Source: a virus
DNA: 34,734 nucleotides
Virus record (IMG/VR): IMGVR_UViG_3300025684_000036
Location: 1-34,734 of that record
Reading direction: 5' to 3' (one strand)
Positions 9,313 through 33,501 of this stretch are shown in pieces (position 1 is the stretch's first letter; each line of letters starts with the position of its first letter). The position numbers were made by a program, and so were the translations under genes. The notes under the pieces are model-generated. The model saw nothing but the letters and a program-made list of their open reading frames with translations. It was not told the DNA's origin and did not search any database.

Positions 9313-9750
9313 ATGAGCGAATTAGAAAAAAATTTATATAAACGAGTTACTGTACCAGCAGTGCCTAAAACTGAATCTGCATCTAGAGCATACCGTGGAT
9401 TTTCCACAGTATATTCAAATACAAATGATTGGACAGTATACGATTTTGAACTTGTAAAGCAAGATCTTATAAATCATTTTCATATACGCCAGGGAGAAAA
9501 ATTATCAGATCCAGAATTTGGATGTATAATTTGGGACTTACTATATGAGCCATTTACACAAGAAGTGCAAACTGCTATTATTGAAAATGTAACTCAAATT
9601 GTTAATTATGATCCCCGACTACAAGTAACAGAAGTAGTAGTTGATACCTACGATCAAGGTATACAAGTTGAAGCAAGTGTAGTGTTTTTAAACTATAATA
9701 TTGCTGATACAATGCGTTTTAAGTTTGATCAAAACAATGGCTTAAATTAA
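9313..9750 (+). CDS. 25: gp25-like baseplate wedge protein
   Basis: The protein has 145 residues, close to T4 gp25 (132). It shows the family block KQDLINHFHIRQGEKLSDPE, then FGCIIWDLLYEPF, and a C-terminal half with DPRLQVTEVVVD. gp25 family proteins join gp6 and gp53 in the wedge core and contact the sheath ring; related proteins occur in type VI secretion (TssE). It lies 7 bases after the spike gene and 49 before gp6, the order expected of a wedge module. A TAAATAC sequence overlaps the upstream stop, but it is only 6 bases from the ATG and is unlikely to serve this gene. The nearest Shine-Dalgarno-like bases (TAGG) are 11 bases away, so initiation may rely on coupling. Confidence 0.94.
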   Translation: MSELEKNLYKRVTVPAVPKTESASRAYRGFSTVYSNTNDWTVYDFELVKQDLINHFHIRQGEKLSDPEFGCIIWDLLYEPFTQEVQTAIIENVTQIVNYDPRLQVTEVVVDTYDQGIQVEASVVFLNYNIADTMRFKFDQNNGLN

Positions 9751-12700: not shown

Positions 12701-13315
12701 AAACCACTTCCGCCAAGTAATGACGAACTATATAGATCATTTGGATCTAAACTTAATGCAATTAAGTCTATAAGTGATGAAATAATATATCATCCTACAC
12801 AGTATAAAATATTATTTGGTAGCAAAGCAAATTCTGATTTGCAAGTAACTTTTAAAATTGTAAAAAATAGCGAATTAGTTACAAACAATAATGAACTCAA
12901 AGCTGATATTATTAGTGCTATTGATAAATTCTTTGCACTTGAAAATTGGGACTTTGGCGAAACGTTTTACTTCCAAGAATTAAGTACATATGTGTTATCT
13001 CAATTAAGACCAAAATTAGTTAGCTTTTTGATGGTACCTAAACAAGAAACACAGTCATTCGGTAGTTTGTTTCAAATCAAATCAGAACCAAACGAAATAT
13101 TAATCAGTGGTGCAACAGTTAATGATATTCAAATCATTGACGAAATTACCGCAGCATCTCTTCAGGCATCAGGAAATGTTATCCAATCGTCTGATAATAC
13201 AAATTATACGGAAATAAAAAGCAGTGCAAGTACTGGAACTACATATTCAACTACAAATACATCAACAGGTGCCAGTAGTTCAACAAATTCAACAGGTGGA
13301 GGCTATAGCTACTAA
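9800..13315 (+). CDS. 6: gp6-like baseplate wedge protein, enlarged
   Basis: T4 gp6 forms the continuous ring of the baseplate wedge core. The N-terminus is highly characteristic: DWKRIYQTFRNVDFQSYDFD, LRQNYPEDFNDYIESSEFLA, LIDMISYLGQNLSFRIDLNA, and ARENFLETAERRESILRLAR. A C-terminal segment near 1030-1110 (AIDKFFALENWDFGETFYFQ) matches the gp6 ring-forming end. The whole protein is 1171 residues against 660 in T4, with most of the surplus between about 520 and 960. That region contains an EF-hand-like loop DSDDDGVVDDPE (residues 813-824), a possible calcium site. The last 40 residues are Ser/Thr/Gly-rich. Start at ATG with AAGGA; the stop overlaps the next ATG (TAATG), so the giant protein downstream is probably translated by coupling. 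Confidence 0.94.
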   Translation: MSSTDRQSRLLVAEDWKRIYQTFRNVDFQSYDFDNLRRTMINYLRQNYPEDFNDYIESSEFLALIDMISYLGQNLSFRIDLNARENFLETAERRESILRLARMLAYNPRRNQPANGLLKISTVKTTETIFDSNGINLANTVIKWNDQSNTNYFEQFIKLLNAALPVQNTIGNPLKTATISDVVTQQYRFNSINTKQALYPFTKRIEGSTTRFEVVSSDIQNQTIVEEPPLPGNSPAFLFRDDGQGAASTNTGFFMHFRQGKLEEGAFNISNPTPNQAVSIDSTNINDSDVWLYSVDDAGVELSNWTKIDSVEGNNIIYNNLFQGIKDVFAVSTRVGDRISLIFSDGVFGNLPSGNFKTYYRTSANKSMVVSPSAIGKVDIEIRYQGRNGNRETLTLGLELKYTVANSNTSESNDEIRTNAPATYYTQNRLITGEDYNIGPLAISQDIIKTKSTNRISAGISRYFDLKDTSGKYSNTDLFSTDGIIYKEEFIEKTKFSFNTQSDIEGIINNTVENILSTTYMRNFYLDKFPRNIVSDLNISWKAATTATNNFTGTLTDIDDVVVAVGSFTANSLKFVEAGSLVKFVAPTGSYFDANNNIVVGTPVKKNTKSYIWTKIISVQDDGKLIDENGFGAITINDNVPTGALLQEIVPKFSRALTDDIKAQLIDQTFNYNDYALRYDATARQWKLVLAENINISNAFAVGKTGDVSGQNLDASWLLNFKTDGQTYEITYRNLRFVFESDTQIKFFFDSADKVYDTNTGKTYRDKIDILNINNKQGSTDSFTRDFTWSIQDAYRDAEGYVDTKKIIVTYLDSDDDGVVDDPELFSILVDYSNEEIDSEDKIIFQKRYYTTDGVESYKYFPNESNTVLIVANESAIAPYSARTEGQVFYLLEEKVFKILNKSLNNTSLNIDYKAYEGRANLKFHYSHVADSNYRIDPAVSNIIDTFVLTKSYDVQLRRWLKEENTIKPLPPSNDELYRSFGSKLNAIKSISDEIIYHPTQYKILFGSKANSDLQVTFKIVKNSELVTNNNELKADIISAIDKFFALENWDFGETFYFQELSTYVLSQLRPKLVSFLMVPKQETQSFGSLFQIKSEPNEILISGATVNDIQIIDEITAASLQASGNVIQSSDNTNYTEIKSSASTGTTYSTTNTSTGASSSTNSTGGGYSY

Positions 13316-16300
13316 TGGCTAATAATGATCAAAACGAAACCAATCAAGGTAACAGTAAAGTTACTAGTAGTGATTTTCTTCCTAAGTTTTTTAGAACCAC
13401 AGCAAACCAAAAGTTTTTACAAGCAACGCTAGACCAGTTAATACAACCGGGCGAAGCAGAAAAAATTGAAGGTTATTTTGGTAGAAAGACTGCTAAAGCA
13501 TATACAACTAATGATAATTACATTTCTGACGTATCTGATGATAGAGAAAATTATCAACTAGAGCCTGCTCTAATTTCTAAAGACGAGTTTAATAATGTTA
13601 CTTTTTATAAAGACTACAATGATTATATTAACCAATTAAAAGTATTTGGCGCTGACACTAGAGATCATAGTATATTAAATAGTCAAGAATTTTATAGTTG
13701 GAACCCAAATATTGATTGGGATAAGTTTGTAAACTTTCGTGAATATTACTGGTTGCCAAACGGTCCTCAAACAGTAAATGTTAGAGGACAAGCAAGGTCA
13801 GTAACTAGCACGTATACAGTAACACTAGAAGATCAAGGTGACAATAAAGCATATGTGTTTAACGATGGATTAACAAGAAATCCTACACTTAAACTTTATA
13901 GAGGACAAACATATAGATTTGAAGTAGATGTTCCAGGACATCCGGTTGCATTTGCTATTAGTAGAACATTTACACCAGGTACAGCGATTCTTGTTGCAGG
14001 TTCTGAAGGCATTAGGTCTAATGGAATATATGACGGAACATTGTATGATGAAGTTGATGCTAATTATGATTTAGGAGATTTTGTTGTTCTTCCTAGCGGT
14101 GGCAGTGTGTCTTTTGATGAAGACGAAAATGTAAGCACAATTTATTCAGACGGCATTCGCAAGTTAGGCGAAGAAGGCGAAGAAGTTGCTACGGTATATC
14201 TTGAAAAAGGCGTTATAGAATTTACAATTCCAGACAACGCACCTGATAGATTATACTACATCAGTAAAAATAATATTGATACTAGTGGATATGTTAGAAT
14301 AGCTGATATTGAAGAAAATACATTCTTAGATATTGCCGCAGAAATTATTGGTAAAAAGAATTATACAAGTGCAAATGGTGTTGAACTATCTAATGGAATG
14401 AAAATTAGATTCCAAGGCGATGTTACACCTGCAATATATAACACTAATGATTGGTATGTAGAAGGCGTCGGAGATAAAATTAAATTAATCAAAGATGTTG
14501 ACTTAATTATTCCAGCAGTATATTCAGATAAAGTATTAGTTCCGTTTGGAACAGATGCATTTGATACACTTCCTTTTAGTGATGCTACAAGTTATGCAGC
14601 GAATAAAGATTATCTTGTTATTAACCGTTCAAGTCCTGACAAAAATGCATGGAGTCGTTATAATAAATGGTTCCATAGAACTGTAATTCGAGCAAGTGCT
14701 ACATATAATAACACTGAATTATCTCTTGATGAAGCATCGCGAGCAAAGCGTCCAATTATTGAATTTGAAGCTGGTTTAAAACTAAACAAATACGGAAGTT
14801 TTGCAAAGCAAGATGTTGACTTAATTGATACTGTTACTGTTGATGCATTTTCAAATATACAAGGACAAATTGGATACAGAGTAGATGGTACCAACTTAGC
14901 AGAAAATATGAGAGTGCTGTTTACAGCAGATACTGACATATTAGTTAATGGTAAAATTTATCTTGTTAAGTTCATTACCATTGGTAATAAAAGACAAATT
15001 AATTTGGTCGAAGCTGAAGATACTAATCCAAATGTTTTAGAAACTGTGTTAGTTACTCAAGGTGTTAAAAATGCTGGTAAAAGTTACTATTATGACGGTA
15101 CGTCTTGGAAATTAGGACAAGAAAAAACAAAATTAAACCAGCCACCATTATTTGAAGTATTTGATATTGATAAAAATAGTTTTAGTGATTCTACAGCATA
15201 TAGTGCAACAACATTTGCTGGCACAAAATTGTTTAGTTATAGAGAAGGTGCTGGAACAATTGATGCTGAATTAGGATTTCCATTATCATATAGGAATATC
15301 AATAACAGTGGCGACATTGTGTTTGATTTTAATTTATTAACTGATAAATTTTCTTATGAACTAGGAACAGATTATTATAATAAATCAATCAATCCAGGCT
15401 TTATTAAAAAATATAAAAATTTAACCGAGTTTGAGTGGACCAATGGTCTAACAAACAAGCCTAAAAAGAGTATACAAAAAGTACTACGTCAGTATGATGT
15501 AACAGAAGACGAGTTACAAACTTTTGAAATAGACGTGTATAGCGAAGCCGGCACGCTCACTGATATAGTTGTTAATGTATTTGTTAATAATAAGCTAACA
15601 AAAGATTATGTGTTAGACAGAACTAATAAAAAATTATTAGTAGTATTTAATAATGAACTAAAAGAAAATGACATTGTTCTTATCAAAACAAAAACATCTC
15701 AAGCAAAGAAAAATGTTAATGGGTATTATGAATTTCCGATTAACTTTGAACGTAATCCAAAAAACGAAGACTTTAGTGAATTTACACTAGGTGAAGTTAT
15801 TGATCATGTCGACACAATGATTGAGGATTTACAAGATTTTTCGGGCGAATATCCTGGAAAAAGCAATCTTAGAGATTTAGGAGATGTTGATAATTACGGA
15901 AAGCGTTTTGTTAAGCATAGCGGATCTATCAACTTATCTGCTTATCATATTACTAACAAAAAATATAATCTAGTTAAGTCATTAGATTATAGCAGAAGAG
16001 AATATGCTAGATTTAAAAGAAACTTTTTAGACGCAGCAGTAAACTTAGGAGTAGAAACTGAAACTAAGCAGCATGTTGATTTAATATTACAAGATTTAAA
16101 TAAAGACAAATTAAAAACCGAACCGTTTTATTTTAGTGATGCACTTGGATACCAATCTGCTAACATTATAGAATATGAAATCTTAGATGTTCGTACAAAA
16201 AGTTATGCATTATCTCAAGAATTTAATCTTTCAGAATTGTCAACTAGAAGTGTAAATGTCTATATAAATGGAACACAACTAATCCATGGTGTCGATTACA

Positions 16301-19300
16301 ATTTTAATAATGTTGGATTTGTAGATATTTTTGCTGACTTTATTAAAGAAGGTGACAAACTAACAGTTTATGAATATTCAACTACAGATGGTACATTTAT
16401 ACCACCAACACCTAGTAAGTTAGGATTGTATCCTGCTTATGCACCTGAAATAACGTATGACGATACTTTTAGGCCAGCGCCTGAAAATGTTCCAGTTGAC
16501 GGAACTGCTTATAAAATTTATGCACAATCAGAAGAAGGATTTAATGCAGAAGGTAAAATAGGCTGGTTCTATCCTTTATATACAACTATAGCCGCTGCAA
16601 AAGCAGCAGATATTGATGCTGGAGGAACCGGCGCTGCACATCAACATATGTTTAAAGGATCTAATATAATTCTTTACATGCCAACTGTTGGTGCAAACCA
16701 TGCAACTATTGACACTACAATTTACGATGAATATCCAATTGGGCAAGCAATGGTAAGAGGACATGACGGAAGTTATGTTAGATGTTATCAAGATTTTAGA
16801 GATAATCTATTAGTTGAATTAGAAAAACGTTTATTTAATAATATTAAAGTTACTTACAATTCAGATATTTTTAACGTTCATAAATTTATAGGCGGCGAGT
16901 ATAGAAATAGTGATTATACTAGAGAAGAAGTCAATAGTAGTTTATTAAGGACATTTGCAGATTGGCTGTCAATCATTGATAATGATTACACAGATAATTA
17001 TTTTTATCTTAGACAAGACGAGTTTACGTTTAATTACAACTCGATGAAATCTACAAATGGCAATACTCTTCCTGGATTTTGGAGAGGCATATATCAAAAT
17101 GCATTTGATACTGACAGACCTCATACACATCCTTGGGAAATGCTAGGATTTACTGTAAAACCGAGTTGGTGGAATGAAGTATATGGTCCTGCTCCTTATA
17201 CTGGAGATAACTTACTGTTATGGGAAGATTTAGAACAAGGCAAAATTGCCGAACCTGGAAACATAAGATATAATAATAATTATGTTCGTCCTGGATTAAC
17301 TAATCATATACCTGTAGACAGTTTAGGCTTTTTAAAAAGTCCACTAAGATCAAATTTTCTTGATAACTTTGAATTAAGATCAACAAGTAACAATTTTAGT
17401 TTTGGTGACTGGGCTCCTGTTGAAAATGCATGGCGCCGCAGTGCAGAATATCCATTTGCTGTATTAACTTCGATGGTACTTAATAAACCTGCCGAAACAA
17501 TTGGCATTGGCTTTGATATTAGTAGAATACAAAAGAATTTTGCAAATCAATATATCTATAATCCTACTAGTAAAGTACTTCAAATAGAAGAATTGCTTTT
17601 ACCTAATACAGTTCAGTCTTCACAGCGTGTAATGACAGCAGGCTTAGTAAACTATGTTTCTAATTTAATTTCGAGTAATGTATTAAAGGTATATGAAGAT
17701 TACAAAACAGAACTAAAATCGTTATCTAATCAATTAGGATTGAAGATTGCTGGTTTTACAGATAAAGATAAAGTAAATGTGATACTAGACAGTAGAAGCA
17801 TTGTTGAAGATCAAAGTCAAGACGGCGTTTTTGTTCCAGAAGAAAATTATGATGTGTTTTTAAACACAAGTTCTCCAACTGATTTAATTACTTACAGTGG
17901 CATTGTTGTAGAAAAATTAGCTAACGGGTTTGTTGTAAGGGGCTACAGTAAAAATAATCCATATTTTGATTATTATGAACCTAGTGCATCTGCTAAGTCG
18001 CCTGTAATAACTGTAGGCGGTGTTAGTGAAGTGACTACAGAGTGGCAGTCTAATACTCCATACCTTAAAGGACAAGTAATTGATAATGCAGGAAAGTATT
18101 TTAGAGTTAATACTTCATTTACTACCGGAACTACCTTTACTAGAGAAAATCTATCTCAGCTATCATCATTGCCAGTAGTTGGCGGCAAAAGCGCTGAGTT
18201 TAAAAAGAATTTTAACAAACAACAAATTCTTAGAGTACCGTATGGCCACAGATTTTCAACAAGTCAAGAAGTTGTTTCTTTCATGCTTGGATACAACGAA
18301 AGATTAAAAGACTTAGGATTTAATTTTAATAATACACAAGACGGATCACAAATTGATGATTGGAATGATGCTGCTAAAGAATTTTTATTCTGGACAACAC
18401 AGGGCTGGGCAAGCGGCACTGTACTATCTTTAAGTCCTAGTGCCAACAGATTGCAGTTTGATAAACCGTATCATGTTGTCGACGACTTATCTGACCCGTT
18501 TTATGGATATTCGATACTTGATGAAAATGCAAACCCTTTAGATCTTAAGTTTAACAGTATGTTAAGAGATCAAAACAGTTTTGGTATCGAAGTTGTTAAT
18601 ACAGATCACGGTCTTTATCATGTAGCATTACCAGTAGTTCAAAAAGAACATGTTGTATTGTTTGATAACAAGACAGTATTTAATGATATCATTTATCAAC
18701 CATCAACTGGTTATAGACAAGAAAGATTAAAAATTAATGCATATAGAACAGACAATTGGCAAGGCGGATTTAATGTTCCTGGGTTTATTTTTGATGATGC
18801 AAAATATACTGCTTGGAAAGAATATCAAGATTATCAAATTGGAGACATGGTAAAACATAGACAATATTATTATGTTGCTACTCAAAATATTGTTGGTAGT
18901 TCTAATTTTAATAGCAATGTTTGGTTTAGACTAAGTGAAGAACCTGAAAAGAAATTATTAACAAACTTTGATTATAGAATTAATCAATTTATGGACTTCT
19001 ATGATTTAGATAGCGCAGGTTTCGATAAGTCACAGCAAGAATTAGCACAGCATTTGATCGGATATCAAAAGAGACAATATCTTGCTAATATTATAAATGA
19101 TGATGTCAGCCAATTTAAATTTTACAATGGATTTATTCAAGATAAAGGCACTATGAACGCAGTTACTAAACTGTTTGATTCATTATCAGATAACGAAGAA
19201 GATAAGATACAACTATATGAAGAATGGGCAGTACAACTTGGTAGATACGGATCTACAGAAAACGAAAAACAACTTGAATACAAATTAACAGACAAGAAGT

Positions 19301-22300
19301 TAGAAGAAGCACCACAAATATTTGAACTTACAAATACTGTTCCAACAGATATTGACAAAATTTATAGAATATATCCTAGTGATGTATTTGATAAACCTGA
19401 TACTTATATACATACTTCTGCATTTCCTGAAACTGTTCCACAAGAATATCTTAAAACAGGCGGCTATGTAAATCCTGACGATGTTACGTTTACTGCATAC
19501 GACAAGTATGAATTACTTGATGCTGATGTAAATAAAATTGAATTAGGGTCATATATTTGGTTAATTGAAACAGGAAATGATGATTGGAATGTTTACCAAT
19601 TAATTGATACCAAAGTAGTAGCAACAGCATTAGTAGTTGACACTGGTAGATTTAGTGATAAGGGCGAACCTATTAATGAATTAACTATAAACAAGTGGGC
19701 AAAAAATAACATCGAAGCGGGCGACTTGTTTGGAGTTATCGGAGCAGGCGCTGTTGGACTAGACGGAATTTATGAAGTTGAAAGCACGGATCTAAATAAA
19801 GTTTATTTTATAAATGAACAAATAAGCACCACAGCGTTCTCAGACAAAGAGCTTGCTATAGTAAAACTAAGATCAGTAAGAATAAAATCACAAAGTGTTG
19901 CAGTTACACAAGATATAAACAATTTACTTACCGGCACACAGTATAAAGATCAACGTATATGGGTTGATGATTATGCACCGGGATGGTCGGTATTTGAAAA
20001 CAATCCAGTTTATTCTCAGAGACAGGTAATAACTAATCCTAGCGATTGGGATAGTTCGGACCAAGAATTTGGCAATGTAATGGCTTCGAGTGCTGATAAT
20101 AGAACACTAGTAGTTGCTGCACCAAACGATGAAAATGGCAAAATTAATATATATGTGAGAAGTAGAGAAAGTAACAACTTTGTTATTAATCAAGAAATTA
20201 GATTTACTAATGATTTGTTATTTGATATTACAGGATCAAGATTTGGAGAAAGTGTTGACATATCTCCAGATGGAGAATATATTGTAGTTGGTGTACCAAA
20301 TGCATCTAATGTAAAAACAAAACTTACTGGAGAATTTGATCCAACTGTAACATATACAAAGGGAGATATTGTTAAATTTAGAGAAAGTTTATGGCAGGCT
20401 TTGAGAACTATTAATCCAGAAACTGGATCAAAAACATTTTCAACATTTGATAACTATCAAAATTTAATATCGACTGAAGGCGCAGATTCAACAGATACTA
20501 TATTGTTAGTGTCAGGAGATCCAGGATTAGAAAACAATTTTGTTGATCACATATTAGTACGTGCTCCACAAGATATGTATCTAGGTACAAAGGGAAGAGA
20601 CTTTACTCAAACTAGAGAAAGCGGCGAGTTTGCTGGAGATACAGTTAACTTATATTGGCAAGAACGTAGTTATGCTAACCCTACTTTAGACACATACCAA
20701 CCCTTTGACAATGCCTACCCGCAAATTAATCAAGCATGGCTAAGTAGCTCACATGAAATTATATATAAAGTTGATTATATTCTACAAGTGCAAACATTTA
20801 TTTCGCTTCCTGAAGTTGGAGATTTTGTAACTACTACAACAGGTAGAGCCGAAGTAGTTTATGCTGCAAGATCCGGCGATAGTGCAGTAATTTACGTTAA
20901 AGATACAAACGGTACAATAGCAATTACTGGTGAATTGTTTATTGACGACAAAGATTTTGTTGGTTTATATACTTTAGAAAATACATATTCAACAAGTAAC
21001 GCAGTAGGCGGATATTGGTTAATTAAGACATACAATACTACACAGGCACCATTATCTACATGGACGGCAGAAGAATCTGATGCAAATGGATTTGTTTACG
21101 ATAATAAGACTACATGGTATGATGTTGGCCGCGGTCTTGTTTATGCAGATGTTAGATTAGCTGAAAGTTCACGTGATCTCAATGTGTATTATAATGTTCA
21201 AGATACTGTTGCTGATATTGGTACATATGTATTAAACAAAAATAATACAAGTTTTATAACACAACTTTCGTATAGAGGTGATCCCGGAGATATCGAAGCA
21301 TTCCAGCCATCTAACAAATGGCTTGCACGAGTTGGTAAAGAATTTTCAGATACATTAATCGGAAATGAAACATTTAATTTCCGAGTATATGATACTACAA
21401 GATTTGTTGATTATAGTAATGCTTTCCTTGCAAGTGAATTAATTAATAAGTCTCAAACTATTATTGATATGTGGGATGGTTATATTGATTTTAAATTTAC
21501 TCGATTTGATGCATCAGGAAATGTATTTGAACCTGCAATAGGAGATGTATTAGTAGATGTGCAAACACCTAGTGACGGCTCAGGCGGCCTTGCAGCCAGT
21601 AGTTTGGATGCTACTAGTGCAGCAGAAGTTGTGTTTTATCAGCGTAATTTTAACAGTGTTAGAGTTTACGTAAAGTTATTAACTTCTTATAATGGTGTTA
21701 CATATAGCGGAAAATTTGAAGAAGCTAATAACATTGGTAGATATGAAATCAAACGTCTTGCTAACGAAAGCGAAAGAGGCACAGGTGATGTTGATAGAAT
21801 TATTGGACAGGTTGACGATTCTGATAATCAAATAGCAGTAGGTACTTCAAAAGTAGGAAAATTATTAGTATTTGAAAACTCAGTTGATTTTCAAAACACT
21901 AACTTAACTTGGGACAACACTCCTGCGTTAATTGATGAAGAGTATTATTTCTTTAACGAAACTATCGAAAGTGGAATAAAAAAGGAATCAAATCCTCCAT
22001 ATAGTTTAAATAAAGATTATCGACAGTTATATAATCTTCCAACAGATCCAACTGGCACAGCTAGTGGTAATTTAGACGAAGGCGCTATAGTAATATATAG
22101 AAGACAGACCGACAACACTTATGTATTACAAAAAACTCTTGCAAGTATTAATAGTACAGCTGATAGAAAGTTTGGATCTAAGATAAGAATAGTGCAATCT
22201 AACAAATACTTTACTTTATTAGTTGGTACTAGAGGTGTTGATGCAGCAAGTGAAACAATTAATACAGGGCGCAGAGAACATCCAGGCGAAATTGAATTTT

Positions 22301-25300
22301 TCCGTAACGGAGTTATTGGTACAGAAAATGTTAGTGGCTTCCAACTAAGGGCATATACTACTGACGAAGTTGTTATTTACAAAGACGAATACTACAAAGC
22401 TATACGACCAGTAGTGTCAGGAGTATTCCCAACTGATCCAGTTTACTGGAATAATATAAGTTGGAGATATGGTAAAGATATTAATTATCTCGGAACCTGG
22501 GACAATACATATAGTTACGCAGAAGATAACATTGTATTAAAAGATGGATTGTTGTATAAAGCAAAAACTAATATTGCTGAAGATGCAGAATTTACTGTTA
22601 CTGATTGGACCTTACTTGATTCTAAAGTAGATTATTTAGGTTATATTCCAAACCTTACAGTCCAAAAATTATATGATGAAGCAGTATTTGATCCTGGTAA
22701 TATTGCAGACTTTAGTCAAACATTTGATATAAGTGCTGACGGACAAGTTATAATTGTAAAAGCAAATCTTATATCCACAGATAGTACTACACAAAAACGA
22801 ATAGTAGTTTATAGAGAAGCAGATGACAAATATCAAGTATCGCAGATAATTGAATCGCCGAACGATACTACTTCGTGGGGAGAAAATATAAGCCTAACAC
22901 CAAAAGGCGATAAATTTGCTATCAGTGCATCACTTAATGACCAGAATGGTATTGATAGTGGCATAGTTTATGTTTATAAACAAGTAAACGGTATATTTGT
23001 ATTAGATCAAACTATAACTTCACCACAGAATGAAATTGCAGAACAATTTGGTTATGCATTAGACTTTGGCGACAATAATCTAGTAATTTCAAGTTTAAAT
23101 GGCGATCAAAAAATTCCAACAACTTTTGACAGCCAAGAAACAACGTTTGATAATAATTTTACTGAATTTAGAAATATCAAACTCGACAAAGGTGTTGTAT
23201 ATGTTTACGAAAATAGAGAAGCTGGCGCACTTTATAGCGAGCAAATAATTTATCCTTCAGTTCAAGCAACATTTGGTGAAAATTTGTATACTTTTGGCAA
23301 TCACATTTATGTTGGTATACCGCAACAATCATCCGGAGTATGGGATCCGGATGGCGGATCTAACAATGTTGGAGCATTAGACGGATACAGAGGTCAAGTA
23401 GTTGACTTTAGAAAAAATGTTGATACAGCTGGGTGGAAAGAAATTGATGCACAAGTATTGCCAGTTGATGTTGATAAGATTTCTGGAGTAACACTTTATA
23501 ACAGTAGAACAAATGAATTTATTACACGTTTAGACTATATTGATCCATTGCAAGGAAAAATTGCTGGTGCAGCAGAACAAGAAATTGACTATAAAGCAGG
23601 CTTTGATCCAGCAGTTTATAATACTGGATTAGTAAATGACTTCCTTGTAGATCCTGATAGATATTGGGGTAAAGAACATGTAGGCGAAATATGGTGGGCC
23701 ACTGATTCTGCTAGATTTACATATCCTTATAGAGGTTCAACTAATGATCAAAAACGTGATTGGAATAAACTAATCCGTGGATCGAGTATTGATATTTTTG
23801 AATGGGTAGAAAGTGATTACATTCCTCAAGTATGGGATGATCTTGCCGATACAGATAACGGGTTACGTCTAGGAATAAGCGGCCAAAGTGTTTATGGTAA
23901 TACACGTTATTCAACACAGTTAACATATGACAACATTGGACAAACGTTCCGTGCAAAATATTATTTCTGGGTTTTAGGCAAGCGCACCAAACCAACTGAT
24001 TACAAACCTAAAAGAAAACTTAATACTATTGACATTGCTAATCTAATTGAAGATCCTAGATTACAAGGTTATAAATTTGTTAGTTTTATTAGTAAGAATA
24101 AATTTATTCTAAATAATTGTAACGACTTAATCCAAGGCGATGATGTTGTAATACAAATTAGATATAAACAAGATCTTGAAAATAATATTAATAGACACAA
24201 TGAATATCAAATAGTAAGCGAAGGTTTAGAAACTAGTACAATACACCCTGATATTGAACGCAAGTGGTATGATAGTTTAATTGGGTTTGATACTAATCTT
24301 AGACCTGTTCCTGACACAGCTATTCCATCAAATAAAAGGTATGGAGTTCAAAACAGACCAAGACAGGGAATGTTTAAAAATCGCTTTGAAGCACTAAAAC
24401 AGACTATTGAGCGTGTGAATATTAGATTAGCAAGTGAGTTGTTAATTGATAGCTACGATTTATCAGATTTGCTATCAAAAGAAGCTCCGCCTACAAGTGT
24501 ATCTGGTCAGTACGATGTTGCAATAGCATCGTACGACGAATTGCGTTTTGTAAGTACAAATAAAATAGTGCAAGCTGATATTGATTTAATTATTAGTAAT
24601 GGTAGAATTATTAGTGCTAATATTATTAATCCGGGCAGGGGATATAAATTTGCACCATCATATCAGCTTGAGGGAGAAGGAAGCGGCGCAATAATTAACT
24701 TTACTATTAATAATTTAGGACAAATTACTAGTGTTAATATTGATAATGCCGGTTCAGGATATTTAGACTCAACAAGATTAATTATAAGACCGTTTAGTGT
24801 TTTAGTTAATGCAGACTCTAATGTTTTTGGCAAATGGGCAGTATATAGCTGGAACGGAACTAAATGGTTTATTAGTAGCATTCAAGATTATGATGTAACA
24901 AATTATTGGGAATACCAAGACTGGTATGCAGATGAATTTAACCAATTTACTACTATTAATTACACAATAAAGGGAACATATTTACTTCCTTCACTTGATG
25001 CAAATGTAGGTGATATTATTAAGGTCGATTCTACTGGTTCCGGAGGCTGGATATTACTTCAACGTACATCTACAATTGTAGGCGATGATTACACTCAAAG
25101 TCATAAAGTAGTTGGCAGACAAAACGGTACAATACAGTTTAAAGAAAGTTTATATAACTACAGCACAAATGCAGTAGGGTTTGATAATAGATCTTTTGAT
25201 AGTTATTTTTATGATAATAATCCAGTTAGAGAACTAAGAATCATATTACAAACTCTTAGAGATAAGCTACTGATAGGTACGCTAAAATCAGAATATAATA

Positions 25301-28300
25301 ATTTATTCTTTGTTGGCGTAAGATATGCAATGGCCGAACAGCCTGGCATTGACTGGATCTTTAAAACTAGTTTTGTTAAGGCAAAATATAATGTAAGCGA
25401 ATTAAGAAATGACGTAACATTTAACAGTGATAATTTACAAAGTTTTGAAGATTACTTAAAAGAAGTAAAACCGTATAAAACTAAGATCAGAGAATATATT
25501 AATGTTTATAATAAAGTTGAACCTACAAATACAAGTGTAACTGATTTCGATTTACCGCCGTATTACAGCATAAGTGATGGTGGTATTATTCCTAATCAGG
25601 CAGTGTTTAGTTCAGGCACTATTATTAATAGTACTAACGAATTTGAAACATATCCTAAAAAACATTATATTGACAATGTTGGATACGAATTAACTGAAAT
25701 TAAAATTAAAGACGGCGGCAGCGGCTATACGTTTGAACCTAAGATTACTATTGTAGGAAATGCAACTAGACCTGCAACAGCTAAAGCCTACCTTGGTTAT
25801 GGTAAAATTACTTCAATAAAAATTACCGATCCTGGAAAAGGTTATCTTACAACGCCTGCGGTTGTTATTGAAGGGTCTCAAAATGAAAATGCTACTCCTG
25901 CAAGGCTAAGTGCTATATTAGGAAATAGTCCAATTCGAACTGCACACATGCGTGTTAAGTTTGATAGAATAAACAAGTCAGTGTTTATTGAAGAACTACT
26001 AGAAACGCAGACATTTAGTGGCACCGGTGCAAAATCAGTATTTAATTTAGAATGGCCAATGGATTTAGACCGTAAAAAAGTTAAAATTACGATAGACGGT
26101 GTTGAAATGCTCCGTAGTACATATACCTATAAGAATATTGAAAATAATGATAAAACTTACTCGCGCCAGCAAGGACAAATTACATTTGTAGAATCTCCTA
26201 AACTAAATGCAGTAATTTCTGTGGAGTATTATAAGCCAATAGATATGTTAATGGCAACTGACAGAATTCATCATTTTTATGAACCAGTAACTGGAATGTT
26301 AGGTAAAGATTTTGCACAGCTAATGAAAGGCATTGACTATGGCGGAGTTGAAGTTAAATCAATTGATTTCTCAGGTCCATCAGGATGGGATACTGCTGGC
26401 TGGTACACCGATACATGGGATACATTTGATACTACATATGAAGACGAAGTATTCACAGCAGATGGAAGTACAATTTTTGTTGAGCTAAGTAAGCCTTTAG
26501 AAAATAACGTTACATATAATGTTTATTTAGGAACATCAGGTAGTGTTAATTTAACAAGAATTGATGATGTTAATTATGGTACAGATCAACAAGTTAATCA
26601 AGATGCTATTATAAGCAGTATTATTGGCGATGGTGTAACTACTGTTATTGATTTAGATGATTTGGGCATTGCATTCGGAGACGGTGATACACTAATTATA
26701 AGAAAAACTACTAGTGATGGTAGTATTGTTCCAGATCCTACTAGTTATGATACACAATTAAGTGGCGGCGATTTACCATATACAACTGCTAAAGGGGTAA
26801 ATGCCGAAGATATTATAGTTGACGGCGACGGATTTGTAAATCCAATTACACATGCAGGTCCAGAAGAACTAATTCCTGGATTAGTTACTGATGCACTTGA
26901 CATTAAAGTCTATACAAGAGACTCGTCAGGCAATGGAGTAATATACAGCCAAAGTTATACAACAGATGGGATAGCCACTAAGTTCTCATTAGGTACAACA
27001 CCTTCGACTAAAGATGCAGTTTTAGTTAAAGTAGATGACATATTAGTCGAAGATACTACATACAATATTAATTGGAACACAAACGAATTAACATTCAATG
27101 TAGCACCTGCAGCCAATCAAGAACTAAACATTATTAGTCAATCTATTGGCACACAAAGTTTATTAGATTACGGAAAATATACTACAGACGGATCTACAAC
27201 TGAAGTTATAACAACTGTTGATTGGATTAATGGTGCTAGTGTAAGTGCTAGTGTTGACGGCGAAGTATTAGATACGGTAGTATTTAATAGTAACGAAGAA
27301 GGATACGACTTACCAAATGCAAAAGTTGGTATTAGATTCCCTGAAACATTGTTAGAAGGCAGAGTAGTACATTATGCAGTATTCAGTGATGATACAGTTG
27401 TAAATTATAGTAGAATTATTACTAATAATTTTACTGGCAACGGCATCCAAACAGCATTTGTATTAGAGGATGTACCATTTACAGCAATTCCGTTAGAACA
27501 TAAAATTATGGTAAAGGTTGGAAATAAGATTCTTAACCCTGGATATAATATTAAATTTACTATTCCAGAAAATAATCAAAGAACGTATAAGTTCGAAACG
27601 TTCCAGCAGTCAATTGGTAGCTTAGATGTTGAAGAATTAAAAGTATACTTAAACGGTGTTGAAATCCAATCACCTGTTGAATGGCGTTATGATGTTGCTA
27701 ATGCAACAATCTTATTAACTGATGATACTGGTGCTCCGGGAGACACTGTTGAAATATTTGCTATTGCAGATGGTGAATATGCGTTTGGATATTTAAACAG
27801 CGAAGGTGTATGGATAGATACTCCGGGAACATTGTATTTTGATACTGCACCTGCACTAAATGAAAAAATAGAAATATTACAATTTAGTAATCATGACATT
27901 CTTGGTATTGAACGAATTAATTATGATGTAGTTAATAGAAGTTCAACAGATGTACCAAGTGAACTTAAAACATATAGATTGTTAAAATCTGGAACTATTA
28001 CATTACGTAATCCAGCAGTTGATGCACAGTATGTTTGGGTAAGTAAGAATGGAGAATTGTTAACACCGAGTGTAGATTATTATGTAACAGATGATAGACA
28101 GCAAATTAAACTAACTGTTCGTCCTAGTGATAATGATGTAATAGATGTGTTACATTTTACAGCGCCAGTTGGTATTCCTAAATTTGCATACAGACAATTT
28201 AAAGATATGCTTAATAGAACACACTTCAAGCGTCTTGATAAAGCAGAAGTTAGATTACGCCAAGCACTTAACTATTATGATTTGCGTATTGAAGTTGATA

Positions 28301-28872
28301 ATGGAGCACTTCTTGCAGAACCTAACAAAGGCCAAAATATGCCTGGTATAGTATTCATCAACGGTGAACGTATAGAGTATTTTGTTAAAGAAGAAAATAC
28401 ACTGCGTCAGTTACGTCGAGGAACACTTGGAACCGGAGTTAAAGATATACATGAAATAGGGTCAAAAGTTTATGATCAAAATATAAGCAAAACTGTTCCG
28501 TATCAAGATATTACAGTAAGTAAGTCGTTTGTTGCAGACGGCGTTGCTGTTGACTTCGAACCCGGCTTTACAATAGACAATATTAATGAAGTTGAAGTGT
28601 TCGTTGCCGGTACAAGAATGCGCAAAGCAGCAATTCAAGTATTTGATCCTACTCTAGCACTTGACAGTACCGACGGAGATGTAACTTCTGATGCAGAATT
28701 TACAGTTGATAATAATATAGTAACATTAGCAACTGCACCTGCTGATAATGTACAAGTAATGATAGTAAAGAAAACAGGAGCACTTTGGAGCAACCTTGGA
28801 ACCCAGTTAGCACAGACAGAAAATTCAATTGCAAGATTCTTACGTGCAGGCACAAGTGAGTTACCAGAATAA
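13315..28872 (+). CDS. Giant 5185-residue baseplate/fibre structural protein
   Basis: One unbroken frame starts at the ATG that overlaps the gp6 stop. It sits where T4 has genes 7 to 11, so a role in the outer wedge and fibre attachment is inferred. From the N-terminus: a conserved head (FLPKFFRTTANQKF; WDKFVNFREYYWLPNGP near 140); a cupredoxin-like domain (about 189-320: LYRGQTYRFEVDVPGHPVAF to DNAPDRLYYIS); helical segments near 880-920 and 1890-1960; CBM5/12-like motifs near 1577, 1834, 2342, 3013 and 3062; seven FG-GAP-like repeats between about 2249 and 3340; GxGY repeats near 3759-3825 and 4126-4190; a DGDGFVNPITHAGPEELIPG block near 4503; and about eight beta-sandwich repeats in the last 950 residues, ending in RFLRAGTSELPE. 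There is no transmembrane segment or signal peptide. Resemblance to large structural proteins of marine phages is from memory; the function of each domain is not established. Confidence 0.9.
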   Translation: MANNDQNETNQGNSKVTSSDFLPKFFRTTANQKFLQATLDQLIQPGEAEKIEGYFGRKTAKAYTTNDNYISDVSDDRENYQLEPALISKDEFNNVTFYKDYNDYINQLKVFGADTRDHSILNSQEFYSWNPNIDWDKFVNFREYYWLPNGPQTVNVRGQARSVTSTYTVTLEDQGDNKAYVFNDGLTRNPTLKLYRGQTYRFEVDVPGHPVAFAISRTFTPGTAILVAGSEGIRSNGIYDGTLYDEVDANYDLGDFVVLPSGGSVSFDEDENVSTIYSDGIRKLGEEGEEVATVYLEKGVIEFTIPDNAPDRLYYISKNNIDTSGYVRIADIEENTFLDIAAEIIGKKNYTSANGVELSNGMKIRFQGDVTPAIYNTNDWYVEGVGDKIKLIKDVDLIIPAVYSDKVLVPFGTDAFDTLPFSDATSYAANKDYLVINRSSPDKNAWSRYNKWFHRTVIRASATYNNTELSLDEASRAKRPIIEFEAGLKLNKYGSFAKQDVDLIDTVTVDAFSNIQGQIGYRVDGTNLAENMRVLFTADTDILVNGKIYLVKFITIGNKRQINLVEAEDTNPNVLETVLVTQGVKNAGKSYYYDGTSWKLGQEKTKLNQPPLFEVFDIDKNSFSDSTAYSATTFAGTKLFSYREGAGTIDAELGFPLSYRNINNSGDIVFDFNLLTDKFSYELGTDYYNKSINPGFIKKYKNLTEFEWTNGLTNKPKKSIQKVLRQYDVTEDELQTFEIDVYSEAGTLTDIVVNVFVNNKLTKDYVLDRTNKKLLVVFNNELKENDIVLIKTKTSQAKKNVNGYYEFPINFERNPKNEDFSEFTLGEVIDHVDTMIEDLQDFSGEYPGKSNLRDLGDVDNYGKRFVKHSGSINLSAYHITNKKYNLVKSLDYSRREYARFKRNFLDAAVNLGVETETKQHVDLILQDLNKDKLKTEPFYFSDALGYQSANIIEYEILDVRTKSYALSQEFNLSELSTRSVNVYINGTQLIHGVDYNFNNVGFVDIFADFIKEGDKLTVYEYSTTDGTFIPPTPSKLGLYPAYAPEITYDDTFRPAPENVPVDGTAYKIYAQSEEGFNAEGKIGWFYPLYTTIAAAKAADIDAGGTGAAHQHMFKGSNIILYMPTVGANHATIDTTIYDEYPIGQAMVRGHDGSYVRCYQDFRDNLLVELEKRLFNNIKVTYNSDIFNVHKFIGGEYRNSDYTREEVNSSLLRTFADWLSIIDNDYTDNYFYLRQDEFTFNYNSMKSTNGNTLPGFWRGIYQNAFDTDRPHTHPWEMLGFTVKPSWWNEVYGPAPYTGDNLLLWEDLEQGKIAEPGNIRYNNNYVRPGLTNHIPVDSLGFLKSPLRSNFLDNFELRSTSNNFSFGDWAPVENAWRRSAEYPFAVLTSMVLNKPAETIGIGFDISRIQKNFANQYIYNPTSKVLQIEELLLPNTVQSSQRVMTAGLVNYVSNLISSNVLKVYEDYKTELKSLSNQLGLKIAGFTDKDKVNVILDSRSIVEDQSQDGVFVPEENYDVFLNTSSPTDLITYSGIVVEKLANGFVVRGYSKNNPYFDYYEPSASAKSPVITVGGVSEVTTEWQSNTPYLKGQVIDNAGKYFRVNTSFTTGTTFTRENLSQLSSLPVVGGKSAEFKKNFNKQQILRVPYGHRFSTSQEVVSFMLGYNERLKDLGFNFNNTQDGSQIDDWNDAAKEFLFWTTQGWASGTVLSLSPSANRLQFDKPYHVVDDLSDPFYGYSILDENANPLDLKFNSMLRDQNSFGIEVVNTDHGLYHVALPVVQKEHVVLFDNKTVFNDIIYQPSTGYRQERLKINAYRTDNWQGGFNVPGFIFDDAKYTAWKEYQDYQIGDMVKHRQYYYVATQNIVGSSNFNSNVWFRLSEEPEKKLLTNFDYRINQFMDFYDLDSAGFDKSQQELAQHLIGYQKRQYLANIINDDVSQFKFYNGFIQDKGTMNAVTKLFDSLSDNEEDKIQLYEEWAVQLGRYGSTENEKQLEYKLTDKKLEEAPQIFELTNTVPTDIDKIYRIYPSDVFDKPDTYIHTSAFPETVPQEYLKTGGYVNPDDVTFTAYDKYELLDADVNKIELGSYIWLIETGNDDWNVYQLIDTKVVATALVVDTGRFSDKGEPINELTINKWAKNNIEAGDLFGVIGAGAVGLDGIYEVESTDLNKVYFINEQISTTAFSDKELAIVKLRSVRIKSQSVAVTQDINNLLTGTQYKDQRIWVDDYAPGWSVFENNPVYSQRQVITNPSDWDSSDQEFGNVMASSADNRTLVVAAPNDENGKINIYVRSRESNNFVINQEIRFTNDLLFDITGSRFGESVDISPDGEYIVVGVPNASNVKTKLTGEFDPTVTYTKGDIVKFRESLWQALRTINPETGSKTFSTFDNYQNLISTEGADSTDTILLVSGDPGLENNFVDHILVRAPQDMYLGTKGRDFTQTRESGEFAGDTVNLYWQERSYANPTLDTYQPFDNAYPQINQAWLSSSHEIIYKVDYILQVQTFISLPEVGDFVTTTTGRAEVVYAARSGDSAVIYVKDTNGTIAITGELFIDDKDFVGLYTLENTYSTSNAVGGYWLIKTYNTTQAPLSTWTAEESDANGFVYDNKTTWYDVGRGLVYADVRLAESSRDLNVYYNVQDTVADIGTYVLNKNNTSFITQLSYRGDPGDIEAFQPSNKWLARVGKEFSDTLIGNETFNFRVYDTTRFVDYSNAFLASELINKSQTIIDMWDGYIDFKFTRFDASGNVFEPAIGDVLVDVQTPSDGSGGLAASSLDATSAAEVVFYQRNFNSVRVYVKLLTSYNGVTYSGKFEEANNIGRYEIKRLANESERGTGDVDRIIGQVDDSDNQIAVGTSKVGKLLVFENSVDFQNTNLTWDNTPALIDEEYYFFNETIESGIKKESNPPYSLNKDYRQLYNLPTDPTGTASGNLDEGAIVIYRRQTDNTYVLQKTLASINSTADRKFGSKIRIVQSNKYFTLLVGTRGVDAASETINTGRREHPGEIEFFRNGVIGTENVSGFQLRAYTTDEVVIYKDEYYKAIRPVVSGVFPTDPVYWNNISWRYGKDINYLGTWDNTYSYAEDNIVLKDGLLYKAKTNIAEDAEFTVTDWTLLDSKVDYLGYIPNLTVQKLYDEAVFDPGNIADFSQTFDISADGQVIIVKANLISTDSTTQKRIVVYREADDKYQVSQIIESPNDTTSWGENISLTPKGDKFAISASLNDQNGIDSGIVYVYKQVNGIFVLDQTITSPQNEIAEQFGYALDFGDNNLVISSLNGDQKIPTTFDSQETTFDNNFTEFRNIKLDKGVVYVYENREAGALYSEQIIYPSVQATFGENLYTFGNHIYVGIPQQSSGVWDPDGGSNNVGALDGYRGQVVDFRKNVDTAGWKEIDAQVLPVDVDKISGVTLYNSRTNEFITRLDYIDPLQGKIAGAAEQEIDYKAGFDPAVYNTGLVNDFLVDPDRYWGKEHVGEIWWATDSARFTYPYRGSTNDQKRDWNKLIRGSSIDIFEWVESDYIPQVWDDLADTDNGLRLGISGQSVYGNTRYSTQLTYDNIGQTFRAKYYFWVLGKRTKPTDYKPKRKLNTIDIANLIEDPRLQGYKFVSFISKNKFILNNCNDLIQGDDVVIQIRYKQDLENNINRHNEYQIVSEGLETSTIHPDIERKWYDSLIGFDTNLRPVPDTAIPSNKRYGVQNRPRQGMFKNRFEALKQTIERVNIRLASELLIDSYDLSDLLSKEAPPTSVSGQYDVAIASYDELRFVSTNKIVQADIDLIISNGRIISANIINPGRGYKFAPSYQLEGEGSGAIINFTINNLGQITSVNIDNAGSGYLDSTRLIIRPFSVLVNADSNVFGKWAVYSWNGTKWFISSIQDYDVTNYWEYQDWYADEFNQFTTINYTIKGTYLLPSLDANVGDIIKVDSTGSGGWILLQRTSTIVGDDYTQSHKVVGRQNGTIQFKESLYNYSTNAVGFDNRSFDSYFYDNNPVRELRIILQTLRDKLLIGTLKSEYNNLFFVGVRYAMAEQPGIDWIFKTSFVKAKYNVSELRNDVTFNSDNLQSFEDYLKEVKPYKTKIREYINVYNKVEPTNTSVTDFDLPPYYSISDGGIIPNQAVFSSGTIINSTNEFETYPKKHYIDNVGYELTEIKIKDGGSGYTFEPKITIVGNATRPATAKAYLGYGKITSIKITDPGKGYLTTPAVVIEGSQNENATPARLSAILGNSPIRTAHMRVKFDRINKSVFIEELLETQTFSGTGAKSVFNLEWPMDLDRKKVKITIDGVEMLRSTYTYKNIENNDKTYSRQQGQITFVESPKLNAVISVEYYKPIDMLMATDRIHHFYEPVTGMLGKDFAQLMKGIDYGGVEVKSIDFSGPSGWDTAGWYTDTWDTFDTTYEDEVFTADGSTIFVELSKPLENNVTYNVYLGTSGSVNLTRIDDVNYGTDQQVNQDAIISSIIGDGVTTVIDLDDLGIAFGDGDTLIIRKTTSDGSIVPDPTSYDTQLSGGDLPYTTAKGVNAEDIIVDGDGFVNPITHAGPEELIPGLVTDALDIKVYTRDSSGNGVIYSQSYTTDGIATKFSLGTTPSTKDAVLVKVDDILVEDTTYNINWNTNELTFNVAPAANQELNIISQSIGTQSLLDYGKYTTDGSTTEVITTVDWINGASVSASVDGEVLDTVVFNSNEEGYDLPNAKVGIRFPETLLEGRVVHYAVFSDDTVVNYSRIITNNFTGNGIQTAFVLEDVPFTAIPLEHKIMVKVGNKILNPGYNIKFTIPENNQRTYKFETFQQSIGSLDVEELKVYLNGVEIQSPVEWRYDVANATILLTDDTGAPGDTVEIFAIADGEYAFGYLNSEGVWIDTPGTLYFDTAPALNEKIEILQFSNHDILGIERINYDVVNRSSTDVPSELKTYRLLKSGTITLRNPAVDAQYVWVSKNGELLTPSVDYYVTDDRQQIKLTVRPSDNDVIDVLHFTAPVGIPKFAYRQFKDMLNRTHFKRLDKAEVRLRQALNYYDLRIEVDNGALLAEPNKGQNMPGIVFINGERIEYFVKEENTLRQLRRGTLGTGVKDIHEIGSKVYDQNISKTVPYQDITVSKSFVADGVAVDFEPGFTIDNINEVEVFVAGTRMRKAAIQVFDPTLALDSTDGDVTSDAEFTVDNNIVTLATAPADNVQVMIVKKTGALWSNLGTQLAQTENSIARFLRAGTSELPE
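13879..14275 (+). other. Cupredoxin-like domain in the giant protein
   Basis: Residues about 189-320 read NPTLKLYRGQTYRFEVDVPG, then HPVAFAISRTF, then an acidic loop and EFTIPDNAPDRLYYIS. The strand order and the GHP and APDRLYY motifs recall cupredoxin-like domains found in phage and secreted proteins. The Cys expected at a blue-copper site is absent from the YYIS region, so metal binding is unlikely and the role is probably structural. Confidence 0.5.
18043..22608 (+). repeat. Five CBM5/12-like (chitin-binding-type) motifs in the giant protein
   Basis: The pattern W..Y..GD.V...G..Y.A....W recurs. Copy 1 starts at W1577 (NTPYLKGQVIDNAGKYFRV), copy 2 at W1834 (YQIGDMVKHRQYYYVA, closing W1870), copy 3 at 2342 (YTKGDIVKFRESLWQA), copy 4 at about 3013 (EVVIYKDEYYKA, closing W3045), and copy 5 at W3062 (YAEDNIVLKDGLLYKA, closing W3098). 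These match the core of carbohydrate-binding families 5/12. Aromatic residues that would line a glycan site are kept in most copies. Copies 4 and 5 are directly adjacent. Confidence 0.55.
20059..23330 (+). repeat. Seven FG-GAP-like repeats, possible seven-bladed beta-propeller
   Basis: Repeats begin near residues 2249 (EFGNVMASSADNRTLVVAAP), 2310 (FGESVDISPDGEYIVVGVPN), 2952 (KFGSKIRIVQSNKYFTLLVG), 3133 (FSQTFDISADGQVIIVKA), 3188 (WGENISLTPKGDKFAISAS), 3245 (FGYALDFGDNNLVISS) and 3320 (FGENLYTFGNHIYVGIP). Each has an FG or WG start, a hydrophobic strand, a turn (often DG or KG) and a second strand ending near a small-residue motif, as in integrin-alpha-type propellers. Long insertions separate repeats 2 and 3 (about 570 residues) and 3 and 4. 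Confidence 0.6.
24589..25890 (+). repeat. GxGY structural repeats in the giant protein
   Basis: Two modules, at about residues 3759-3825 and 4126-4190, each contain two copies of a pattern with I..P.G(R/K/S)GY followed by P...I. Examples are NIINPGRGYKFAPSYQLEG, NIDNAGSGYLDSTRLIIRP, KIKDGGSGYTFEPKITIVG and KITDPGKGYLTTPAVVIEG. They look like beta-rich repeats of fibre or baseplate proteins. Confidence 0.6.
26005..28800 (+). repeat. C-terminal series of beta-sandwich repeats in the giant protein
   Basis: About eight modules share the pattern (T)DG..T.F.L...P followed by V.V.VDG..L....Y and then L.F...P..G..I.I. Examples are TDGIATKFSLGTTP with VLVKVDDILVEDTTYNI and LTFNVAPAANQELNII, and TGNGIQTAFVLEDVP with KIMVKVGNKILNPGYNI. 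Others start near NLEWPMDLDRKKVKITIDG, EELKVYLNGVEIQSPVEW and VADGVAVDFEPGF. They likely form an elongated fibre-like or Ig-like string. Confidence 0.6.
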
Positions 28873-31556: not shown

Positions 31557-31557
31557 T

Positions 31558-33462: not shown

Positions 33463-33466
33463 TAAA

Positions 33467-33474
33467 GATAAATA
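33467..33474 (+). promoter_or_regulatory. Late-type promoter (GATAAATA) for fibre paralogue 3
   Basis: GATAAATA lies 35 bases before the ATG of the last gene, in a 39-base gap after the stop of paralogue 2. It matches the element before gp6 exactly. AGGGG (33489-33493) downstream is the ribosome binding site, 8 bases from the ATG. Confidence 0.66.
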
Positions 33475-33501
33475 ATACTAATAGCACTAGGGGTTACTTA
33501 A

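Follow-up and report, generated by a model that had tools for sequence, protein, structure and literature searches.

A single gene of 5185 codons in the baseplate region of a T4-related jumbo-type phage is intact and conserved, overlaps the stop codon of gp6, and encodes a protein with two conserved blocks and clade-specific modules between and after them. We lean towards reading this giant as an enlarged member of the virion protein family PHROG 10938 that holds the gp7 slot of a T4-type baseplate operon, likely as an oversized wedge arm.

The giant gene and its setting

The window, meaning the whole stretch of DNA analysed, is the complete IMG/VR record IMGVR_UViG_3300025684_000036 (34,734 bases); the record is classed as linear, so the window is probably a fragment. 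Its genes run in the order gp55-like sigma factor, gp53-like protein, large virion protein, hub, gp25, gp6, giant, PHROG 11259 protein and three fibres. The baseplate and fibre genes are as follows.

2047–2343, + strand, gp53-like baseplate wedge protein (PHROG 7145 'baseplate wedge subunit', E 4e-25; T4 gp53, E 0.0065)
6822–9305, + strand, gp5-like hub lysozyme; its C-terminal domain belongs to PF21277, the VgrG3-like C-terminal family of type VI secretion (E 1.2e-34)
9313–9750, + strand, gp25, baseplate wedge (PF04965, E 6.5e-10)
9800–13315, + strand, gp6, baseplate wedge (PHROG 10646, E 1.3e-294; PHROG 219; T4 gp6 profile against its first 130 residues, hhalign E 8e-5)
13315–28872, + strand, giant gene, 5185 aa, ATG start, matching PHROG 10938
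29502–31556, + strand, separate fibre with T4 gp12-like collar domain (Collar, PF07484, E 4.5e-18; hhalign to T4 gp12 over the collar domain, E 9e-7)
31558–34734, + strand, two more fibre-like genes; the window ends within the second

Reading of the frame at 13315–28872 confirmed what the earlier note had described as a single unbroken 15.6-kb gene for a 5185-residue protein: there are zero internal stops, and the ATG shares one base with the gp6 stop codon (TAATG). Its placement between gp6 (upstream, 9800–13315) and the fibre genes (from 29502 on) also held, as did the figure of roughly 2500 residues for the T4 wedge and pin proteins, since T4 gp7, gp8, gp9, gp10 and gp11 sum to 2475.

The three tandem fibre genes (29502–34734) share, by eye, an N-terminal motif ENFLxLLENF ... 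P...GQxWxD and look like paralogues; the Pfam Collar match is in the first only. Between the hub genes lies a 360-aa frame (5698–6780) of low-complexity look, for which neither Pfam nor PHROG gave a match at E 0.001.

The long frame is authentic

An assembly or sequencing error that fused several genes would explain so long a frame, and the earlier note had named it as a refutation. Every comparison spoke against it. Contig G001 (85,750 bases), an independent assembly, spans the window at 99.8% identity with no gap openings (mismatches in overlapping pieces: 41 in 21,800 bases, 33 in 17,665, 3 in 5,866 and 3 in 3,314). The giant gene itself has 31 single-base differences between the two, and 14 of these are silent. 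A scan of IMG/VR with giant residues 1–600 found 389 relatives; in all 80 loci kept, the frame was open to the end of the available DNA (624–3949 codons). Scans with the N- and the C-terminal part had fifteen contigs in common: one begins within the gene, and the 14 others give it a length of 5091–5260 codons (mean 5163). In two further contigs the open frame runs to 5136 and 5296 codons. In four homologous pairs, changes were fewest at codon position 2 and most at position 3, the pattern of coding constraint, and isolated phages carry homologues of 3326–4449 aa (five opened). Nothing was found in favour of an artefact, and we rule it out on the independent contigs and the coding-constraint pattern; its probability is negligible.

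In Salmonella phage records OR699181, OR699182 and OR699183 the region matching the giant is divided among two to four annotated genes, perhaps through frameshifts or sequencing errors. Downstream of the fibres in G001, 4 of 10 scanned frames matched the radical-SAM family PHROG 14086 (L193:12064-13449, L194:414-1928, L194:5282-6664 and L194:8517-9782); this unusual cluster beside fibre genes could perhaps serve surface-sugar or peptide modification.

A family of giant virion proteins

The giant matched PHROG 10938 'virion structural protein' with E 4e-247 over its first 2500 aa and 2.7e-73 over the rest. We searched 11 records: T4, five complete relatives (Atu_ph07, PA5oct, RaK2, SCTP-2 and CBB) and five metagenome contigs of 86–156 kb. 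All but T4 contained a PHROG 10938 protein (10/11). In a tblastn search with giant residues 1–1200, relatives appeared in 57 of 50,697 phage records (a count that includes one phage twice, under GenBank and RefSeq numbers), among them RaK2, K64-1, PBECO4, 121Q, Munch, GAP32, CBB, PA5oct, Atu_ph07, SCTP-2, Phosso and a Vibrio phage. Those opened encode proteins of 3326 aa (RaK2), 3340 (CBB), 3807 (SCTP-2), 3857 (PA5oct) and 4449 (Atu_ph07). The window clade, at 5091–5296 aa, has the longest family members among those compared. Such lengths are probably not new among phage structural proteins, to judge from the PHROG 701 profile with its 6136 positions.

Some relatives are known from virions. 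CBB_236, which we checked as a relative of the giant, was found there with 21 unique peptides and 7.72% coverage (PMC5259590). The record note for the PA5oct giant gives ESI-MS/MS. Gp245 of phAPEC6 was found with 17 peptides (381.88 kDa; PMC7247149), and we place it in the family by its size and its position after gp244 'baseplate wedge' only. The 4455-aa 'structural protein' gp58 of Sinorhizobium phage AP-J-162 is 49.6% identical to Atu_ph07 and is numbered beside a 1198-aa wedge protein (PMC11242549); it is probably another member. Membership of the giant in a virion-protein family is thus supported, virion presence being known for relatives rather than for the window's protein. The open-licence PubMed Central papers searched named no role for the PHROG 10938 giant.

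Gene position is nearly constant. Of the 57 records, 56 have the giant match beginning 39–208 bases away from that of gp6, both on one strand, and among the five RaK2-like jumbo phages opened the giant directly follows gp6 in four, as in the window. The exception is SCTP-2, with gp6 about 92 kb from the giant and on the opposite strand. There (L005 10609–19899; record position 231230–234949) the giant is preceded by another giant gene (9291 bases), not by gp6.

Two conserved blocks and clade-specific modules

We mapped conservation along the giant against the five complete relatives, modelled residues 951–2150 and 3340–4140 with AlphaFold2, and compared the models with known folds. The parts recognised are as follows.

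13315–19614, + strand, conserved core A, residues 1–2100, common to RaK2, CBB, PA5oct, Atu_ph07 and SCTP-2 (conservation map)
16165–16389, + strand, fibre-docking-like small beta domain, residues 951–1025 (AlphaFold2 model, VIA-align)
18034–18168, + strand, CBM5/12-like fold, residues 1574–1618 (VIA-align; Pfam PF02839, E 0.021)
18805–18939, + strand, second CBM5/12-like fold, residues 1831–1875 (VIA-align Z up to 6.4; Pfam E 0.02)
18979–19194, + strand, candidate gp7-type core helices, residues 1889–1960 (INQFMDFY ... FYNGFIQDKGT; gp7 profiles M1 and M2)
19762–23424, + strand, clade-specific insert, residues 2150–3370, with FG-GAP-like and CBM5/12-like units
20233–20310, + strand, FG-GAP-like unit, residues 2307–2332 (24.8 bits, cut-off 23)
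20335–20403, + strand, CBM5/12-like unit, residues 2341–2363 (18.1 bits alone, below cut-off)
22495–22566, + strand, weak CBM5/12-like unit, residues 3061–3084 (17.5 bits, below cut-off)
22903–22977, + strand, weak FG-GAP-like unit, residues 3197–3221 (20.5 bits, cut-off 23)
23425–25674, + strand, conserved core B, residues 3371–4120 (conservation map)
24571–24789, + strand, GxGY repeat module, residues 3753–3825 (PHROG 701, 2885, 719, 22827)
24943–25125, + strand, tailspike-like small module, residues 3877–3937 (weak; VIA-align Z 5.6 to the Acinetobacter phage P1 tailspike over 60 residues)
25675–28869, + strand, clade-specific C-terminal extension, residues 4121–5185 (conservation map; beta repeats by eye)
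25681–25890, + strand, second GxGY module, residues 4123–4192 (PHROG 460, 19630, 708)
28231–28476, + strand, module also inside a cyanophage gp7-slot giant, residues 4973–5054 (hhalign E 8e-6 and 1.1e-5)

The RaK2-like jumbo phages share both conserved blocks with the window giant, which differs from them in its insert and its C-terminal extension. Within core A, stretches around residues 151–300 and 1051–1125 are poorly shared. The insert has almost no match in the five reference phages, and the RaK2 giant joins the two blocks almost directly, with its residues 1703–1825 between. In the C-terminal extension, PA5oct is the only one of the five to align in order (about residues 4958–5042); Atu_ph07 has one out-of-order repeat unit matching residues 4121–4193. 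The beta repeats of the giant were noticed by eye in the protein sequence, and a DNA repeat search returned short imperfect copies only.

Model quality was moderate in both cases (mean pLDDT 69.5 and pTM 0.45 for residues 951–2150; 70.5 and 0.42 for 3340–4140). Foldseek against the PDB gave nothing at E <= 0.001 for either, and phmmer against PDB chains found no homologue of the giant (one match at E 0.89). Against predicted viral proteins, core B matched 'YHYH domain' proteins of uncultured phages (best E 9e-79) and the Atu_ph07 giant (E 4e-35), and weakly some cyanophage proteins (TM about 0.1), one of them named 'baseplate wedge initiator'.

VIA-align picked out single small domains. Residues 951–1025 resemble the cyanophage A4 tail, residues 190–250 of CBA120 TSP4 and the N-terminus of T7 gp17, with Z 8.7 (72 residues), 8.0 (61) and 6.9 (64), where values of 7–8 can mean a common arrangement only and those under about 8 may be chance. 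Residues 1574–1618 align with the C-terminal part of a chitin-oligosaccharide deacetylase (Z 6.9, rmsd 1.3, 45 residues), and chitinases C and B are among the matches for residues 1831–1875 (881–925 of the model). By Pfam, CBM5/12 (PF02839) reached 35.1 bits over the first 2500 aa (cut-off 26.2), each copy scanned alone falling under the cut-off, and FG-GAP_2 matched in the insert with E 2.5e-5 and 5.4e-4. The conserved N-terminal head, propeller-like region and glycan-binding-like motifs that the earlier note had read from the letters are broadly borne out by these three lines of evidence. The annotation of the gp6 homologue of Vibrio phage 2.275.O (MG592671 290914–294765) reads 'carbohydrate-binding module family 5/12', a hint that CBM-like units are present in gp6 of the giant-bearing group too.

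The GxGY module at residues 3753–3825 is also found in other phage structural families. We rejected the matches to PHROG 701, 2885 and 460 as evidence of orthology because their best stretches cover GxGY modules only.

Several of these modules would suit an adhesin or receptor-binding arm that is fixed to the outside of the baseplate and forms no wedge scaffold, its place after gp6 reflecting operon order only. The fibre-docking and CBM5/12-like domains fit such a role, as do the tailspike-like module at 3877–3937 and a weak T7-fibre-like Pfam match at about residues 4618–4656 (E 0.037); residues 2150–3370 and 4121–5185 vary between clades, as receptor parts do, and the separation of giant and gp6 in SCTP-2 points the same way. 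Against it, cores A and B have stayed conserved in phages that infect very different hosts, and the position after gp6 recurs in 56 of 57 records. The T4 gp7 profile, moreover, finds no other candidate in the relatives, though a wedge core of (gp6)2-gp7 type has been described as a well conserved feature of T4, XM1 and other injection systems (PMC10457771). We consider an external adhesin unlikely.

The gp7 slot

That the giant stands in the gp7 gene slot, directly after gp6, is supported by comparison with other T4-related phages. The gene order of the window (wedge, hub, small wedge, gp6, X) is like that of phiM7, where an HNH gene intervenes and where the T4 numbers of the two small wedge genes are our own assumption. 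The phiM7 X, the gene after gp6, matched T4 gp7 with E 6.5e-5. Genes directly after gp6 encode 1006 aa in phiM7, 767 in Cr30, 283 in Menlow, 335 in K414 and 3007–4458 in four cyanophages, and their products carry a helix pair, M1 (QFPxFY...) and M2 (FYxxKGT), also seen in T4 gp7. These landmarks were chosen by eye; P10VF (875 aa), which showed no such pair, did not enter the profiles.

In XM1, (gp16)2-gp17 is homologous to T4 (gp6)2-gp7, and the gp7 counterpart gp17 has 242 aa, as against 1032 in T4 (PMC10457771); gp7 size is therefore elastic. T4 gp7 and its shorter counterparts in Cr30, K414, Menlow and XM1 (the last by that paper's homology only) share the slot after gp6 with the giant, which is about five times the length of T4 gp7 and has no significant sequence or fold match to any of them. 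As in T4 gp7, a helical core may be preceded by a long N-terminal part.

The best place for M1 in the whole giant is residues 1890–1907 and for M2 residues 1934–1960, adjacent and in the correct order. The stretch 1889–1960 is among the most conserved of the giant and is predicted helical at low AlphaFold2 confidence. Column-shuffled profiles reached the giant's score in 5 of 26 cases for M1 and 2 of 26 for M2, so that neither is significant alone; what is unusual is their side-by-side placement, which occurred in 13 of 676 shuffled pairs (1.9%). With a joint core profile in hhalign, the top four of 86 windows all contained residues 1940–1960 (E about 0.02), and in hmmsearch the joint model did not score the giant above decoys. 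Among 65 windows, single-family gp7 profiles ranked the 1889–1960 region 4th–5th (cyanophage), 3rd and 5th (T4) and outside the first six (phiM7). A third landmark, M3 (YQxYSY...HPxG), which T4 gp7 itself lacks, had its best place at 3175–3204, not at the conserved end of core B. The gp7 Pfam families PF21427, PF21428 and PF21456 were absent among the giant's Pfam matches, and T4-type gp7 (PHROG 964) had no match in G001, which contains the giant gene. Taken at the level of sequence, homology of the giant to gp7 is no more than suggestive. An alternative gp7 core at the N-terminal LPKFF stretch (E 0.47) was dropped, being unsupported by the single-family profile ranking.

Cyanophages too have giants in the gp7 slot. 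Directly after gp6, as in the window, MED4-213 has CPMG_00035 (4458 aa, 'baseplate wedge subunit'), ACG-2014f a 4225-aa 'baseplate wedge initiator', S-RSM4 a protein of 3515 aa and S-SSM6a one of 3007 aa. The S-RSM4-type giant and ours share a GxGY module, by PHROG matches, and one inserted module. Unlike ours, the cyanophage giants show an evident gp7 core close to their N-terminus; the S-RSM4 profile matched T4 gp7 with E 4e-5. A separate gp8 follows the giant in S-RSM4, so a giant gene in the gp7 slot need not swallow its neighbours. A different protein, VrlC of pelagi- and cyanomyophages, has been proposed as a substitute from another family for the missing T4 gp7 (PMC7029224); its likeness to the giant, compared here through its description rather than its sequence, lies in that proposal of a substitute outside the gp7 family.

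The other wedge and pin proteins

Profiles for gp7, gp8 and gp11 had no match in the five complete relatives or the five metagenome contigs (0/10), while T4 was found as positive control, in line with the earlier note, which saw no separate homologue of these three. T4 gp8 (PF09215) scored 2e-199 in T4 and was found in none of the ten other records; gp11 (PF08677) was found in T4 alone among the 11. The search tool's control genomes gave one gp8 match (under cut-off) and one gp7 match. For gp9 and gp10, PF07880 had no match in G001; the gp9/10 N-terminal domain was found in T4 and gave one borderline match, at the cut-off, in contig G003, in a separate 241-aa frame (26 bits with in-frame neighbours), and weak matches inside the G003 giant and in SCTP-2. 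The G003 matches lie at 1924–2220 and 103990–104235. Matches to the gp8-type PHROG 438 in seven records, T4 included, were rejected as gp8; outside T4 they cover profile positions 166–280 only, and they lie inside giants except for one each in G002 and G003.

No match to T4 gp7–gp11 was found by hhalign for 13 segments of the giant. The ends, where the earlier note would have looked for likeness to gp7, gp8, gp10 or gp11, were among them (first 160, first 700 and last 585 residues, plus ten more). The best of 65 comparisons was to gp8, at E 0.017 and a probability of 2.7%. The T4 alignments for gp7 to gp11 are shallow (17, 15, 32, 19 and 1 sequences), and misses are possible: the method linked the window gp6 to T4 gp6 (E 8e-5) and the first fibre to gp12 (E 9e-7), but gp53, certain by PHROG, reached only E 0.0065. 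No gp7 or gp8 fold was among the VIA-align matches listed, models of 801 and 1200 residues testing single domains poorly. T4-type gp7, gp8 and gp11 are thus absent or unrecognisable in the relatives, as far as profiles can tell; profile absence is not functional absence.

Could one giant chain replace gp7, gp8, gp9, gp10 and gp11 together and form the whole wedge periphery? The silence of the gp7, gp8 and gp11 profiles in all ten non-T4 records would fit, and so would a length more than twice the T4 sum. The giant also has many small domains, one of them matching CBA120 TSP4 residues 190–250, which we take to be one of that protein's T4 gp10-like XD domains. XD domains have been described in CBA120 TSP4 (PMC10253068). 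Yet no segment of the giant matches gp8, gp9, gp10 or gp11, the S-RSM4 giant coexists with a separate gp8, the gp12 collar sits in the neighbouring fibre, and the borderline gp9/10-type N-terminus is in a separate G003 frame. Such wholesale replacement seems to us improbable. We are equally doubtful of its fullest form, in which one chain with a buried gp7 core would have taken the whole periphery (gp7–gp11) in the RaK2-like lineage, as six arms, each some 570 kDa in mass (5185 residues, taking about 110 Da per residue), bearing docking, glycan-binding and propeller modules, with non-core parts swapped between clades to change baseplate contacts. Host-contact fibres have not been taken into the giant, because the next genes are separate fibres, one of them with a gp12 collar. 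Of the proposal that the giant stands in for T4 gp7–gp11, what remains is a virion family, the gp7 slot and the absence of gp7, gp8 and gp11 profiles; we found no evidence of a takeover of gp8–gp11, which is unproven.

Discussion

If the giant is an enlarged wedge arm in the gp7 slot, it would be made together with gp6 by overlapping translation, as read from their junction. One copy per wedge, hence six per particle, would join two gp6 chains by a short helical core near residues 1889–1960, as gp7 does. Cores A and B would build the wedge and inner arm. The docking, CBM5/12-like, FG-GAP-like and C-terminal beta parts, among them the modules that differ between clades, may point outward, where they could hold neighbouring fibres or touch cell-surface glycans and pass a contact signal to the sheath. 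Gp8–gp11 may have been lost or replaced by unrelated proteins, and not all fused into the giant.

Databases already list giant virion proteins of PHROG 10938 as well as cyanophage giant wedge genes that follow gp6. What is new here is the linking of this virion-protein family to the gp7 slot, and a clade whose members are longer and have modules of their own. T4-type gp7, gp8 and gp11 are undetectable by profile in the five complete RaK2-like phages, which raises the question of what builds the outer wedge in their baseplates; for the gp7 share of it, at least, no candidate is better than the giant gene. The division into conserved blocks and clade-specific modules is a guide to which parts would be expected near gp6 and which outside.
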